A stretch of 64,000 nucleotides of DNA from Lanius collurio (Eukaryota > Chordata > Aves > Passeriformes > Laniidae), in NCBI GenBank assembly GCA_020086605.1, contig JACBWW010000008.1, forward strand, positions 18,029,730 through 18,093,729, in the 5' to 3' direction. Below are positions 18,442 through 55,800 of this stretch, piece after piece (the first letter of the stretch is position 1; every line of letters begins with the position of its first letter). The position numbers and the translations under genes were made by a program. The notes beneath the pieces were generated by a model. That model was given only the letters and a program-made list of their open reading frames with translations, was not told the origin of the DNA and made no database searches.

Positions 18442-18729
18442 TGTTGTGGAGGTGCCTCTCCCCTGGGGTCCCAGAGGGAGGGACCCTGCAGGTACGGGTC
18501 TGTCCCTGTCCCTATGTCACATGTGCCCCATGCCTGCTCCTGATTGGTTGGTTTGGGGTGCCTGGGCCCGGGGAAGAGAGCAGGGTCCCGGTGACTGGTC
18601 GGCTAGGGAACTCCAGCCATGCAGTTGGAGGAATAAATCATCTCTGAACATCTAAAGAAATATCGCTTTGTCTTTCCTTCTAAGTTCATCACTGTCTTAT
18701 ATATGTTGTAAGGATTCCCCATTACAACA
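18442..18729 (+). repeat. 5' LTR of the retroelement
   Basis: Starts TGTTGTGGAGGTGCC and ends ATTACAACA. Inside are an inverted CCAAT motif (gattggttgg, about 18541) and AATAAA at 18632-18637, about 90 bp before the end, as in retroviral R/U5. It aligns along its whole length with 20708-21004. The identity with the 3' copy continues for a few bases past the CA (atggtg), so the inner border or primer-binding site is not certain. Confidence 0.85.
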
Positions 18730-18854
18730 GATGGTGGAGATATGTGGACATTCGATCCCTGAAAATGATTTCTAAAGGTCCGGAGTACAACGATGTGAAT
18801 TGTGAGTAATTGAACTTTCTTATTGTCTTGGTTTTGGCTGTACTTTCTGACCAG

Positions 18855-19305
18855 ATGGAGAAATCAGAGGAGTTGTGGCTATCTGAGCCACAGAGAAAAA
18901 AGTACTTGGAAGTGAAAGACATTCTAGCGAAACAAAATGCAAAACTGGACCCAGTTTTTAGAACACTTCTTTAACTGGCTTTTCAAACATTTCTTTTATG
19001 TCACTCAAGACTTAATTTTTGATGTTGGTTTTCCTGTGACTAGAGGGGACAATTTTTGGAAAGAAATCAATGAGTTGATAATGATCCAGTCAAGAAGTGG
19101 AATGGTAGTAGAATTGATCCTAGTATCTTTTGCAATTGAAGATGCTCTCATAAAGCACGTACTCGGTCCCAGTAACACAGAGGTGCCTGTGGCAGAGGTG
19201 CCTGCGGTGGAGGTGCCCAGCCCCTCTAAAAGCACAAGCTGTAGAGCAGATCCCATCCCTGTATCAGAGTGCACTCCCGAGCGATGGAGGGCGAGAGAGC
19301 GATGA
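18855..19305 (+). pseudogene. Degenerate betaretrovirus-type Gag matrix remnant
   Basis: An ATG at 18855 opens a 39-codon frame (MEKSEELWLSEPQRKKYLEV...) that hits a stop at 18972. The similarity continues in another frame (about 18975-19160), where an aromatic helix (LFKHFFYVTQDLIF) and a segment with NFWKEINELIMIQSRSG and FAIEDALIKHVL follow. The order of aromatic, Trp-containing and Ala-rich helices is what class II (ERVK) matrix domains show. The frameshift and stop make it non-functional. A possible donor (gtgagt, 18799) and acceptor (ctgaccag) lie in the leader. No capsid or nucleocapsid zinc knuckle is seen. Confidence 0.55.
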
Positions 19306-19905
19306 CGAAGATGCTGGATTTGAGAGTGCATTCCTAGGGGTCTCTGGGGTATTCTTACAGTGAATAAAGAAGGAGAGCTGGTAGAAATAGCTGCTGAGAA
19401 ACACAAAAAGCGAGCCACGAGTGCAGAGGCACGAGCAGTGAGGGCAGCAGCGAGGGTGGCAGCGAGGGCAGCAGCAGCAGAGGCGCGTCCCAGCAATGGC
19501 CGCCCCACGTGCCATGGGGAACGATGGTCCAAGCCCGAGCCCCGCACTGAGAAAGGCAGCGGCGATTGTGGCAGTCGCTATGGCGACCGCGGTGAGCCAC
19601 GCCGAGCTGAGCTGGAGCAGCGTGGAGGCAAGAAGGGAGCCGTGTTAGTCGACAGCCACACAGCCGACAGCAGCAGCAGCGGCGGCAGCACCGGCGGTAC
19701 AAAGCTGCCCACACGCGAACGCCTCACAGGGCGCGGCCGTGCAGCCGCGGGAACGCCCGGAAAGCGTGGAGCAGTCACACAGAGCTCCAGAGGAGAAGCG
19801 AGCACAGCGCCAAGCGGCAGTGCAGAGGTGGCCGAAGGCAGAGCAGCCGGCAGGGTCAGCGTGCAGCAGCACGGCCAGACCGGACTCATGTGGCCCTAAA
19901 CATGA
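19306..19905 (+). other. GC-rich Ala/Arg/Ser-coding stretch inside the retroelement
   Basis: This 600-bp block is far richer in G+C and CpG than anything around it and is open in more than one frame on both strands. In the + frame from 19360 it gives Ala/Arg-rich low-complexity protein (KRATSAEARAVRAAARVAAR) until TAA at 19897. Because overlapping frames are open mainly through base composition, I treat none as a proven gene. It may be the 5' low-complexity part of the captured Y-box gene, since Y-box proteins have an Ala/Pro-rich N-terminus, or unrelated filler. Confidence 0.5.
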
Positions 19906-20490
19906 TCCCGAGGAGTCCAGACCCTGCGACAGGAATGCGCTGGCGGCCCGGGTGGTCCCGGCTGCGGCAGCTCCAGTGCAAGAGCAAGAGAAACCAAAAG
20001 TGAAAGCAAGAACAAAGGAACTCAGAAAAATGAAAATGTTATCACAGCTAGGGTTTTTGGAACTGTAAAATGGTATAATGTAAAGAAAAGTTACTGTTTC
20101 TTATTGAGAATCGATACTGGGGAAAGTATTTTTGTCCATAAATCTGCTATTGTAAAAAATAACCCCAAAAGTGATGTTCCAAGCGTAGAAGAGGGAGAAA
20201 GAGTAGAATTTAAAATTGTACAAGGAAGAAAGAGCCCACAGGCAGCAAGTGATACAGGCCCTGGGGGTGCTCCTGTGAAAGGCAGTAGATATGCTAGACA
20301 ATATCCCCATAATCCCTATCCTTTCTCCTATCCCACCTTCCCTTTTTATCCCATGCCCCTTTATCCCCCATATATGCCCAGCCCAAATTTCCCTTTCTGG
20401 TTCCCCTCACAAAACCAGGCTTTTCCATTTGCCATGAATCCCTTTGCAATGCCGATGAGGGACATGAAAAGGAGGGAGGGAAGAAATTAA
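19906..20490 (+). CDS. Captured Y-box (YBX-type) cold-shock domain open frame
   Basis: The frame is open from the TGA at 19903-19905 to TAA at 20488. The cold-shock domain covers about 20038-20298: VITARVFGTVKWYNVKKSYC, then ESIFVHKSAI, then VEEGERVEFKIV and TGPGGAPVKGSRYA. This is the Y-box version of the domain and not the bacterial Csp type, because it has the insert with KNNP and the closing TGPGG...PV.GS.YA motif. The RNA-stacking Trp of KW, the Phe of YCF and the Phe and His of FVH are kept, while the usual GYGFI core has become SYCFL. After the domain, the basic arginine-rich islands of YBX1/2/3 are replaced by a Pro/Phe/Tyr/Met-rich tail (YPFSYPTFPFYPMPLYPPYM, 20311-20370). There is no ATG before the domain in this frame, so translation would need fusion, splicing or an upstream start now lost. 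It is probably a decayed gene, though the domain itself has no stop. Confidence 0.8.
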   Translation, partial: SRGVQTLRQECAGGPGGPGCGSSSARARETKSESKNKGTQKNENVITARVFGTVKWYNVKKSYCFLLRIDTGESIFVHKSAIVKNNPKSDVPSVEEGERVEFKIVQGRKSPQAASDTGPGGAPVKGSRYARQYPHNPYPFSYPTFPFYPMPLYPPYMPSPNFPFWFPSQNQAFPFAMNPFAMPMRDMKRREGRN

Positions 20491-20707
20491 CCATCATTTT
20501 CTAAGATTCCAACAGGTACAGAAGGGAAAAAATCCTCTGCTGACTCAGTTTCCATCTGAAGCATGCTCAAGTCCTATGTCCCTCCTGATGCTCCAAAGAA
20601 AATCTGTTTGGACATTTGGGGACTCAAGATAGTGGCTTCCTTTCCTTTGAAATTGTTTTGTTGTTTATCCAGTTGTTTCCAATGTTATTTTATTTAATAA
20701 GAAAGGG

Positions 20708-21004
20708 TGAATTGTGAAGGTGCCTCTCGCCTGAAATCCTGGGGGGAAGGACCCTGCAGGGTATGGGTCTGTCCCTGTCCCTGGTCCCATGTCACGTGTG
20801 CCCCATACCTGTTCCTGACTGCTTGGTTTGGGTGCCCAGGCCTGGGAAAGTAGAGAGGGTCCCATGACTGGGGTCTGCCTGGGAACTCCATCCATGTGGC
20901 TGGTGGAATAAATCATCTCTGAACATCTACAAAAATATCGCTTCATCTTTCCTTCCAAGTTCATTGCTGTCTTATACTTGTTGTAAGGATTCCCCGTTAC
21001 AACA
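20708..21004 (+). repeat. 3' LTR of the retroelement
   Basis: Starts TGAATTGTGAAGGTGCC after a purine tract and ends GTTACAACA. AATAAA is at 20907-20912. It matches the 5' LTR throughout with scattered substitutions and small indels. Confidence 0.85.
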
Positions 21005-22230
21005 AATGGTGTATGTTTACATGCTGTCAAACTTTGACTATAACTAGACTACTCACATCTGTTTTGTTACTTCACTAATCCATGAAGTATAATAATGAAT
21101 AAGGCTGGTTGCAAGCAAGTCTTGCATAGAAGTGGAAGCCTATCCTAAGTGATGTCTGCCATCACTTTCTAAATTGCAGAGAAGTTGAAGGCAATCTACC
21201 TGCCTTTCGAAATAGTCTTACTGTCTGACAATAAGTGTTCTACTGTCCTGTTCAATTTTTGTCTATTGTTACTTTTAAAAAATATGTAGCCTTCTGGAGT
21301 CTATTTTAAACAACAATTAGATTTTACTAATTAGTTTTCATGCTGAGAAGTTGAAGATATGCCACATGTTTCTATGAATCAAAAATCTATCTTCTCTTAA
21401 TTCCCAAGGCTGTGAAAAATACCCAATACCTTTAAAAACCTTGAAGAGACTGGAGGGAAGGAATTTTATTTGAGACCATAATCTCACAGACTGAATTTTA
21501 ACCATGCTCCTGTCTTGGGAGACACTGAGAAAAGCTTATCTCAATAATAGAAGGTATGTGAGTATGGCTCCTTCTTAGAGCTGAACCAAGCACAAATATG
21601 CAAGATGAATATCGTAGGAACACAAAAGTAAGGGTAGCTAGGTAAGTTTGTCTATTCTTTTTGGGGTGGAGGTTAGAAAAAGTAAGCTTGAAAGCTAGTT
21701 CAGAGAAGACTGTAAACTTGATAATGGATCTCAGAGAAAGCAGATTCTTTAATCCTAAACTGCAGGCAATAGAAACTTTGCTTTTGATATTAACTTTCTC
21801 AGGAATTTAACATTTACTTCTGTGTTAAAGCCCTGCAGTATCTTGATATTGCCAAGACTGAATATCTTGGCGTCCCCTGGGTTTATTTCCATTGAACCAT
21901 GAGGCCCACAAGCCAAACTTTGTTTTGCCTATCCTAGTGACTTTTATGAGGATCCTCACTAAATGGAGGACTAGCTGACATTCTTTTAAAGCACATTGGG
22001 TGGAAGACTCAATAAAGGCAGAAGATGTTGCTGCTTTTTTGGTCTGCTTGAACCTCTTTGTCATCTATGTGGAGCATCTGGTGTAATCTTGCATGTAAGT
22101 AGGAGCTAATTCTTCAGTAATATATAACTTCACAGTACTGAAACTTCCAGTGTAACACCATTAGTTTCATGGTAGTATTAGATTTTTGTGCAAGACGTTT
22201 GAGCAGAAACATGTGGGAGGGGTTTTTTTG
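21005..22230. other. Intergenic spacer
   Basis: AT-rich unique-looking sequence. Short open frames have no recognisable domain or splice support. Confidence 0.6.
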
Positions 22231-52800: not shown

Positions 52801-55800
52801 ACAGCACCAGAAAAGTGAAACAATTGCATAAAGAATATAAATTCAGTTTTTATAGATTTCTGTCAGTATTGTGAAAAATAATCACTGCTAAGGAAGATGG
52901 TGATCTTCTGAAATGTTTTAGCAGATGCTACAAGTATTTGACTACAGCACTAGCCATCTGACTGCAATGGAGGATTTTCATGTTGACTGGAATTTATTCT
53001 GTTCTTTTAACAGTGAAACAGTGATTTTTCTTTTTTTTTTCCCTCTCCTTCTTACATGCTTCCCTCTTTCTACACAGAAGGCAATCCTAGATAAGCAGAT
53101 TAATATGTGGGATAGCTCCTCTTCATTGTTCTGTGCAGCACTTCCAGCTTTTCATAGCCAGTTGGACTTGTTAGGAGAAGCTGAGCGATTGGTTGTTTCC
53201 TGGGCTCCGTTTCATAAATTATAGCCCAGCATGCATGAGCATGATTCCTACAGTTGCAGTAATCCAGAGGCCTGTCAGTTCCTGACTTTATGCATGTTTA
53301 TTCCTACTTGTTTTATAATATTGCACTGGAATTTCCTGTCTTAGATAGTTTGGTATTGCATCGTCAGGACTCTGTGAGTAATTTTGACTTTTTCTACTCT
53401 GTTAATTACATACCGTAAACAAGAATGCTTGTGTTTAGGAAGTAGTTCACTGGAAGCTAACGTTCAAGATTCTGTGCTGTTTAAGATCAGGTAAGTTAAC
53501 TTTGTAGCTCTTCTCTTGCTAGGTTTAAAATAGCTCTGTGATGTTACATGTGTTCAGTGCATTTGGGGTTCATTCACGTCTGAAATAGACTGTGTTTGGT
53601 CCCATAGTTTTTGTTCTTCTGTAATAAAATATAGTGGTGTTGCATTACATCTCATTTATGCCTAATTAAGACATGTGGCGTGTCTCACATTTTCACAGTA
53701 TACTGTATACTAGCAATTGTGGTAGAACTAATGAAGAAATGTACACAATTCTGTGCTTGTAATATGATAAAGAATCCCCACTCCTCTCATACTCACCCCT
53801 TTCATCTCCTCAAAATAAGAACATACATATCAGTAAAAGGCAGGATAGTGTTAACAACTGGTATGTTAAACAACTGCAAGGCTTTATGTTTATGTTAAAC
53901 AACTGCCCCCCCTCCTTCCCCCTCCCTCTTCCCCCCATTTATAAGTGCTATGATGTTTTCCTTAATTTGTAGAGAGATATTTTTCATGGCAAGAAAAATA
54001 ACAGCATGTTGGAGTTCAGACTTTTAAAAAGCAAATTCAACCCACAGTGAACTAGAAACCTGTGGGAAATGCTGTACAGGATCTGTGGTTTAATCAGATG
54101 GAGTTATCACAGTGATTCCCTTGTTGGTTTCCTGAGATTGCCAGGTGTTACCTCTGCACAACTCAGGTTTAAACCAACAGAGCAACAGATTGAAATCTGA
54201 AATAAGAAACCTACAAAGGTAATGCTCTACACTTCTCTCATAAATGCTATAAGATCATATTCACTACTATAAACACATGTCCATGCAAAGAACTTTCCAT
54301 GTTGCTTTATTTTTCCTCTGGAAATGTCACTTTGCTGTGTGGTGTAATAAAGCTAGTGTTTGCTGGTAAATAGCTTGGGTTATACCAAGATGCATTGATG
54401 TTCTGCTAGCAAGATATAAGCTTCTGCTCTTTCTTATTAGCTTTCCTTTTTGAAGCCTTAGCTTTTCAGATGGAATTGTGTGACTAAATAATTTTAAACA
54501 GTAAACATTCTTCAGACAGCTGCCTTGCTCTTTCTAATATATATTATTGCTCCTGGGTATATAAACTGCCCTTGTAAGACTTGTCTAGATATCTCTTTTT
54601 GCTAGCAAAGAAATTATTTTTCAACCCTGAAATAGAAAACAGTAAAGTAATTTTAACAATATTACTGCTTGCATGTCTTACATTGTAAAGTGACCATCAC
54701 AAACTGAAAGTGAATACTATGGTAATTCTGTCTCAAATATTTTTGTTAGATATGGATCAGCAAACTGAACAGCTAAGCTCTTCTAAATGGCTTTACAAAG
54801 TTTAACAAGAGGTTTGCTCACACAGATAATATTTGAGGTAACTTTTGCCAACTTTACCATACTGGTCAGATAAAGCAAGTAGATATGCTATTACCTTTGG
54901 TAATACTAAGCCTAAACCACAGTGAAATCAGTTTGACTGAGAAGATATGAATTGAGACAGTGAATTATAAGTTATTAATTCCTACAATATTTATGTAATA
55001 AGAAATAAGAATCCAAAGTTCTCTTAGATGTGTAATCTAGTTTCAGCAAGAGTTTCTCTGATGTATATGAAGCACAAGGAATTAAGCTGGTGAGACATTA
55101 AACTTGGAGAATGTGGTATGCTAGTGTGAACAGCTGTGTGATTTGTCATGTCTCATCTGAATGGAAGTTATTCCTGACAGGAAAATTTTTTTCATATAGT
55201 CAGGTTATTTAGCTCTGAACATTGCTACTTTACTTCTGTGCTCAGTGAAAATGAGAGACTATGGAAAATAACTTGCAAGTTTAAGTGAGTTTCTTATGAT
55301 GATGTGTTTGCTGTGATCTTAAGGTGAGCAATGTGTGGTAGCTGAGCAATGGCCTGCTAACAATACTGTTAATACCATGTTTCCAGCTGAAACTGTACTG
55401 AGGCAGACTTCTATATGTATTATTTGGAATCTAACATATCACAAGCAGTGCCTTCAGGCTGGATCAAAGTCCTTTTGTGCTGGATGCTGTTCAAACAAGT
55501 AGTGAAAGGAAGTCCCTGCCCTTATGAGATTATAAGCTAAACAGGGTGGTAGGTACAGGATGGGTATGTGCACAACTTATATATAACCTTGGGCAAGTCA
55601 GAGCAGGTCAACAGCTAAAGAAGGAGTGAAATTCTGGAATATATTTGCAATATGATGTTGTGTTAGATATATCTGTAGCAAAGACTTGAGGCAATGAAGG
55701 CCCACATTAGGACACCTGTTTGATCCAAGTAGCAGTATAGGTGCATTGCTAATTAGCTAATTAGGCCAAAATTAGCTTGCACTGAACATTTTACTGCTTC

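Follow-up and report, generated by a model that had tools for sequence, protein, structure and literature searches.

A 2,560-bp long terminal repeat (LTR) element with an open frame for a Y-box cold-shock domain (CSD) lies at positions 18445-21004 of the DNA analysed here, a 64,000-nucleotide stretch of the Lanius collurio genome (GenBank assembly GCA_020086605.1, contig JACBWW010000008.1; hereafter the window). We take it, with a probability of roughly 80%, to belong to a non-autonomous class II (ERVK-like) LTR family that has captured a Y-box complementary DNA (cDNA) and carries it in a matrix-CSD protein, which would handle the element's own RNA. Host-gene capture by endogenous retroviruses is already known; in this family the host contributed an mRNA-binding domain, which is joined to a Gag matrix-like module and was apparently selected while an element lacking pol multiplied. 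With such an element one could test whether a host RNA chaperone can perform the work of nucleocapsid. An earlier note on the same stretch had proposed retroviral capture of a cellular Y-box gene, a proposal now supported both by genomic copies that combine LTR and CSD and by fusion proteins in Corvus and Aphelocoma.

The element belongs to a mobile family. A search of the genome with the CSD as query gave 1,067 candidates, of which the best 40 were scored: the window copy (L001) and 39 others, at 92-94% identity and aligned from query base 1, 3 or 6 through 451 (L002-L008 occupy the same places as L041-L047 and were counted once). The CSD stands between two LTRs in 34 of the 39 other copies, with the TG and CA ends intact in most but not all of them, and the median copy length is 2,495 bp, the shortest copy having 1,998 bp; the longest, L017 (3,249 bp), presumably contains an insert. 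Exact 6-bp target-site duplications bound 16 of the 33 copies for which both flanks could be compared (L017, with one flank cut off, was left out) and none of 1,056 mismatched flank pairs, while duplications of 7, 5 and 4 bp number zero, two and one, respectively. Because of this excess over the controls, we conclude that the copies are independent insertions, made by an integrase that produces 6-bp duplications, and duplication of 6 bp is the habit of class II (ERVK-like) elements. The earlier note had named several copies sharing LTR and CSD as the sign of a mobile family, and a CSD confined to this one locus as the contrary sign; the CSD is carried at 39 other places in the genome. A processed YBX pseudogene inserted by chance into a single ordinary endogenous retrovirus would agree with the continuous, cDNA-like CSD of the window frame, but that explanation, whose probability is now close to nil, is ruled out by copies sharing LTR and CSD, with their paired LTRs and 6-bp duplications, and by the identical fusion in Corvus and Aphelocoma.

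That fusion is seen in the protein databases. Searching with the CSD frame returned five protein matches, two of them from Corvus moneduloides, each with the CSD and the whole or part of an aromatic tail. A profile search gave 1,187 matches; among the 120 listed, twelve named C. moneduloides entries are of the family type (P0002, P0003, P0006-P0010, P0013, P0016-P0018 and P0021, with P0006 representing 24 sequences), one family entry (P0015) comes from Aphelocoma coerulescens, and the other named matches are mostly cellular Y-box proteins. Proteins from ENA contigs found in the same search (P0011, P0012, P0014 and P0019) have two tandem cold-shock domains each. P0006, P0015, P0016, P0017 and P0021 each join the CSD, through a GC-rich linker, to an N-terminal module of about 100 residues, and the aromatic tail is complete in P0006, P0015 and P0016. 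Intact relatives in Corvus and Aphelocoma encode a single protein consisting of matrix-like N-terminus, linker, CSD and aromatic tail, and the matrix-like remnant in the window is, as judged from sequence, a conserved module. Searches of IMG/VR viral contigs with an LTR pattern and with profiles of the CSD and of the matrix part gave no relatives, and the GTDB genome contigs contain no LTR 25-mer.

The earlier note had described this remnant as a class II Gag matrix. Translated searches (tblastn) uphold a conserved matrix-like module, for which class II matrix is a putative label, used here on account of the module's position, the five helices of a low-confidence model and the 6-bp duplications. 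Two results count against the overall explanation: the matrix-like part has no significant match in Pfam or PDB sequence searches, and the model of P0015, which has the five N-terminal helices, is of low confidence overall (mean predicted local distance difference test, pLDDT, 49). Residues 1-100 of that model reach a pLDDT of about 51-83 by ten-residue block; for the matrix piece in the window, AlphaFold gives a pLDDT of 55. The Foldseek/PDB and VIA-align matches listed for the P0015 model cover the CSD (286-368 by VIA-align), its two matches below 0.001 in a viral library are both cold-shock proteins, and a protein search with the window's second matrix piece produced no scored match.

Two dissimilar forms of the N-terminal module occur with the same CSD: among the 39 other copies, 24 are of type A (that of Corvus P0006), 13 of type B (that of Aphelocoma P0015) and two of neither type in the stretch read. 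CSDs of the two types are as far apart as CSDs of one type, the distance being 0.070 in A, in B and across types (660 of 2000 permutations gave a difference as large), so that both types draw on one shared CSD pool; in Corvus P0016, likewise, the N-terminus is of type A and the CSD of type B. The 3' half bearing the CSD has thus been exchanged freely between two dissimilar 5' halves, an exchange that would fit template switching during reverse transcription.

The captured frame was probably under selection. Forty copies were aligned over the 155-codon frame of CSD and tail, and the main counts were taken outside CpG columns. Singleton variants are spread nearly evenly over the three codon positions (65, 59 and 48), the distribution that copies decaying once inserted should show, and so are variants found in two to three copies (16, 16 and 17); variants common to at least four copies number 10, 7 and 22 (Fisher p = 0.0012 versus singletons). 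With CpG columns included, the counts are 71/64/60 for singletons versus 13/9/31 for shared variants (p = 0.0003), and the type A matrix part shows the same tendency at three or more sharers (p = 0.035). Because shared, but not singleton, variants pile up at third positions, the pattern suggests that the CSD frame was under selection while the element spread, and the simplest reading would be that active copies required the protein. Several observations count against this: the copies were chosen by their CSD similarity; there are few shared variants (39), and these are not strictly independent of one another; the tendency is not significant in the type A matrix part at four or more sharers (p = 0.19) or in either test of the type B part (p = 0.23 and 0.16); and shared variants per non-CpG column number 0.085 in the CSD, 0.096 in the tail and 0.086 in the 3' untranslated part, the LTR alone being higher (0.139). 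Against the explanation as a whole, the window copy reads YCFL where relatives covering that site read YGFI. Since shared variation is no lower in the CSD, the argument for selection is one of codon position and not of total variation. Singletons per column are 0.41 in the CSD and 0.39 in the tail, versus 0.51 in the 3' untranslated part and 0.60 in the LTR.

The same alignment bears on the possibility that the CSD is a passenger: the protein would contribute nothing, and the element would owe its spread to its LTRs, its primer site and a packaging signal. Non-autonomous LTR elements often require no protein of their own, the frame contains a stop or frameshift in 22 of the 40 copies, and shared variation per column is not below that of the 3' untranslated part; we nevertheless consider a passenger improbable, given the third-position excess confined to shared variants and the intact fusion frames of several Corvus entries. 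A domesticated host gene at the window locus, driven by an LTR promoter, is more improbable again. In its favour, the CSD frame has remained open for 194 codons despite a 13.5% difference between the LTRs, and in a simple decay simulation 0.2-5.6% of runs, depending on indel rate, leave the 155-codon part of CSD and tail without a stop or frameshift, but the same 155 codons are just as open in 18 of the 40 copies, so that the window copy is not special in this respect, and its matrix part is broken.

As to the source of the CSD, a tree of 34 domains unites the element CSDs in one clade (97/96) and places YBX2 in a separate clade that excludes them (99/99); it does not resolve YBX1 and YBX3, and the window row is a long branch. 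Blast scores vary: P0020, in which more Y-box-like sequence is retained ahead of the same tail, matches YBX1 best (168 bits versus 160-161 for the top YBX2 and YBX3), and for P0015 and P0016 turtle YBX2 leads by 2-3 bits. The tree favours a single capture, probably from a YBX1/YBX3-like mRNA. The element CSDs are 50-77% identical to those of cellular YBX1, YBX2 and YBX3 in the pairs compared and have the same fold, and alignments of the relatives with cellular YBX mostly end just past the CSD; unlike the cellular proteins, the element protein shows nothing resembling the C-terminal basic/acidic domain of Y-box proteins, and adds the matrix-like N-terminus and a new aromatic/proline-rich tail.

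We propose that, in an ancestral element, cDNA copied from a cellular Y-box mRNA was taken up downstream of a Gag matrix-like module, which would have yielded one fusion protein. As the earlier note had stated, pol and env are missing: neither has a Pfam match in the five window frames or the nine relatives scanned. With no pol match, and with about 2 kb leaving no room for one, the family is filed as non-autonomous ERVK-like and not as an ERVK provirus. Non-autonomous LTR elements without pol depend on a helper, and for that reason reverse transcriptase and integrase would here be supplied by a helper retrovirus. The CSD may bind the element's RNA, with the matrix-like part carrying the complex to membranes or to a helper Gag, a scheme to which we give slightly less than even odds. 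The host-derived CSD would then take the part of nucleocapsid, or at least keep the RNA stable until packaging, and matrix-like part plus CSD would amount to the outline of a Gag that has lost its capsid and has had its nucleocapsid replaced. The chief rival to an RNA-carrying role is one in expression, in which the protein stabilises or masks the element's message, or counters host silencing, in germ cells. This is favoured by the role of cellular YB-1, which is reported (PMC6040738) to support production of murine leukaemia virus (MLV), mouse mammary tumour virus (MMTV) and human immunodeficiency virus (HIV), RNA stability being one route; but a role in expression would not by itself explain why the matrix-like fusion is kept in two distinct types, and we regard it as rather unlikely.

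The family also appears to include an insertion linked to plumage divergence in crows and to the grey plumage of hooded crows. PMC7341801 describes a 2.25-kb LTR retrotransposon of ERVK subfamily corCorLTRK1b, with an LTR of 296 bp. It is situated 20 kb upstream of NDP, has reached fixation in hooded crows and is linked with reduced NDP expression. Primer P_L_R_2 given there encodes HPWFPS, a tail motif in six Corvus family proteins; its next frame encodes THGFPH, present in P0004 (an ENA contig protein), and its antisense CEGNHG, present in P0013 (Corvus). Exactly one of the 6,144 20-mers that encode HPWFPS fits all three peptides, and it is P_L_R_2; among 300,000 shuffles of the primer, 314 match at least one frame and none matches two. 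The test was made on peptides and not on crow DNA, and none of the other five crow primers has a six-residue match (A_R_3 has one of five residues). It is because P_L_R_2 is the sole 20-mer fitting three family peptides that the NDP plumage insertion is very probably a member of the matrix-CSD family.

Size agrees with this assignment: the crow LTR of 296 bp compares with 285 and 292 bp in the window element, and 2,262 bp are expected from P0006 plus the window's leader and 3' part, compared with the 2.25 kb reported. A difference is that PMC7341801 assigns P_L_R_2 to the 'LTR region', whereas here the primer falls in the coding tail. The primer pair for absence of the insertion yields 197 bp and P_L_F_1 begins 8 bases in (PMC7341801), so that flank can make up at most about 189 of the 659-bp product; P_L_R_2 would therefore lie at least about 470 bp inside the element, beyond the 296-bp LTR. 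The best P_L_R_2 site in the window genome is 602-613 bases from the 3' end (five copies listed), which would leave 46-57 bases of flank. At the DNA level the crow primers match the window-genome copies no better than shuffled sequences do (14-15 of 20 bases for P_L_R_2), and the crow link accordingly runs through the Corvus proteins. The words 'cold', 'Y-box' and 'gag' do not occur in the main text of PMC7341801, and the plumage-linked insertion, if a member, gains a coding content not mentioned there. In a fuller proposition, a host CSD would have taken the place of the RNA-binding half of Gag, giving a matrix-CSD 'mini-Gag' in the role of nucleocapsid; the window genome and two or more corvid genera would have retained that role, and the plumage-linked insertion of crows would come from the same family. 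This proposition is tentative, and we judge it somewhat more likely to be wrong than right.

Captured genes in other elements offer partial parallels. CrocERV29 and CrocERV31 (PMC4299795) are endogenous retroviruses with captured host mRNA (KIT-ligand/nectin3) for which purifying selection is reported; in these the host gene either stands in place of env or is inserted between pol and env, whereas the window family has an RNA-binding domain behind a matrix-like Gag part and lacks pol. Bdelloid LTR retrotransposons with a captured ORF3 likewise gained an extra open reading frame (PMC5408684), but these keep gag and pol, whereas the gain in the window family lies in the Gag-like protein of an element without pol. 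PMC6523648 deals with a different songbird element. In searches of the open-access PMC literature, none of the titles and abstract openings listed mentions an LTR element with a cold-shock domain or a Y-box domain.

The window copy can be followed from end to end, all of its features being on the plus strand. Its 5' LTR (18445-18729; 285 bp, TG...CA, with an AATAAA signal) and 3' LTR (20713-21004; 292 bp, TG...CA) match at 244 of 282 aligned bases (86.5%; Kimura two-parameter distance 0.153, or 0.134 excluding CpG sites), and the 34 LTR pairs of the other copies are homologous to them. The primer-binding site (18732-18749), compared over the 28 nucleotides past the 5' LTR in 35 copies plus the window, starts with TGG two bases beyond the LTR in most of the copies compared; in one other copy it is TGGTGGAGAATGCGGGCA, resembling what we take to be the complement of the tRNA-Ala 3' end. 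An ARAGORN scan of the window gave no tRNA. The matrix-like N-terminus (type B) survives as a first piece at 18855-18947 in frame +3 (65% to P0015 over 31 residues by tblastn) and a second at 18958-19302 in frame +1 (39% with P0015 over 18958-19269 and 40% with P0021 over 18958-19266); since the pieces are in two different frames, the copy is broken there. The GC-rich, low-complexity linker (19303-19905) is interrupted by stops, as read from the translation and the list of open reading frames. The open CSD frame occupies 19906-20490 (194 codons), with a Pfam CSD match at 20059-20247 (E = 1.3e-15) and YBX1 and YBX2 cold-shock domains as top PDB sequence matches; its aromatic/proline-rich tail, at about 20296-20487, is common to the Corvus and Aphelocoma proteins. 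From the stop codon to the 3' LTR, the 3' untranslated part (20491-20712) is matched over more than 80% of its extent in 38 of the 39 other copies, and it ends in the polypurine tract AAGAAAGGGTGAAT (20699-20712), which adjoins the 3' LTR and recurs slightly altered in most of the 34 copies compared. The matching LTRs, the polypurine tract and the YBX-type domain in an open frame, all read by the earlier note, are thereby confirmed.

Divergence between paired LTRs is 5.7-18.1% over 33 copies (median 11.0%; L029 was excluded for its short alignment), and at 13.5% the window copy is of ordinary age within the family. Slower avian rates give it an age of 20-40 million years (My). At the rate of 0.0158 per site per My used in PMC7341801, its age would be about 5 My. 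It is a decayed fossil of the family, roughly 5-40 My old depending on the rate. By eye, its flanks show no matching target-site duplication, and after the 3' LTR a run AATGGTG (21005-21012) resembles the leader GATGGTG that follows the 5' LTR; as the duplication is missing, this copy, with its leader-like run, may have been altered by recombination.

Elsewhere in the window, a GC-richer stretch at 6.0-8.0 kb resembles, by eye, the reverse transcriptase of a decayed CR1 long interspersed nuclear element (LINE). Exon-like stretches at 2.9-9.9 kb on the plus strand resemble DEPDC1/DEPDC1B, again by eye, and at 52953-53236 on the minus strand there is an Rfam match to PART1_2 (PART1 long noncoding RNA conserved region 2; E 9e-30), a combination recalling what is presumably the human 5q12 / bird Z neighbourhood.
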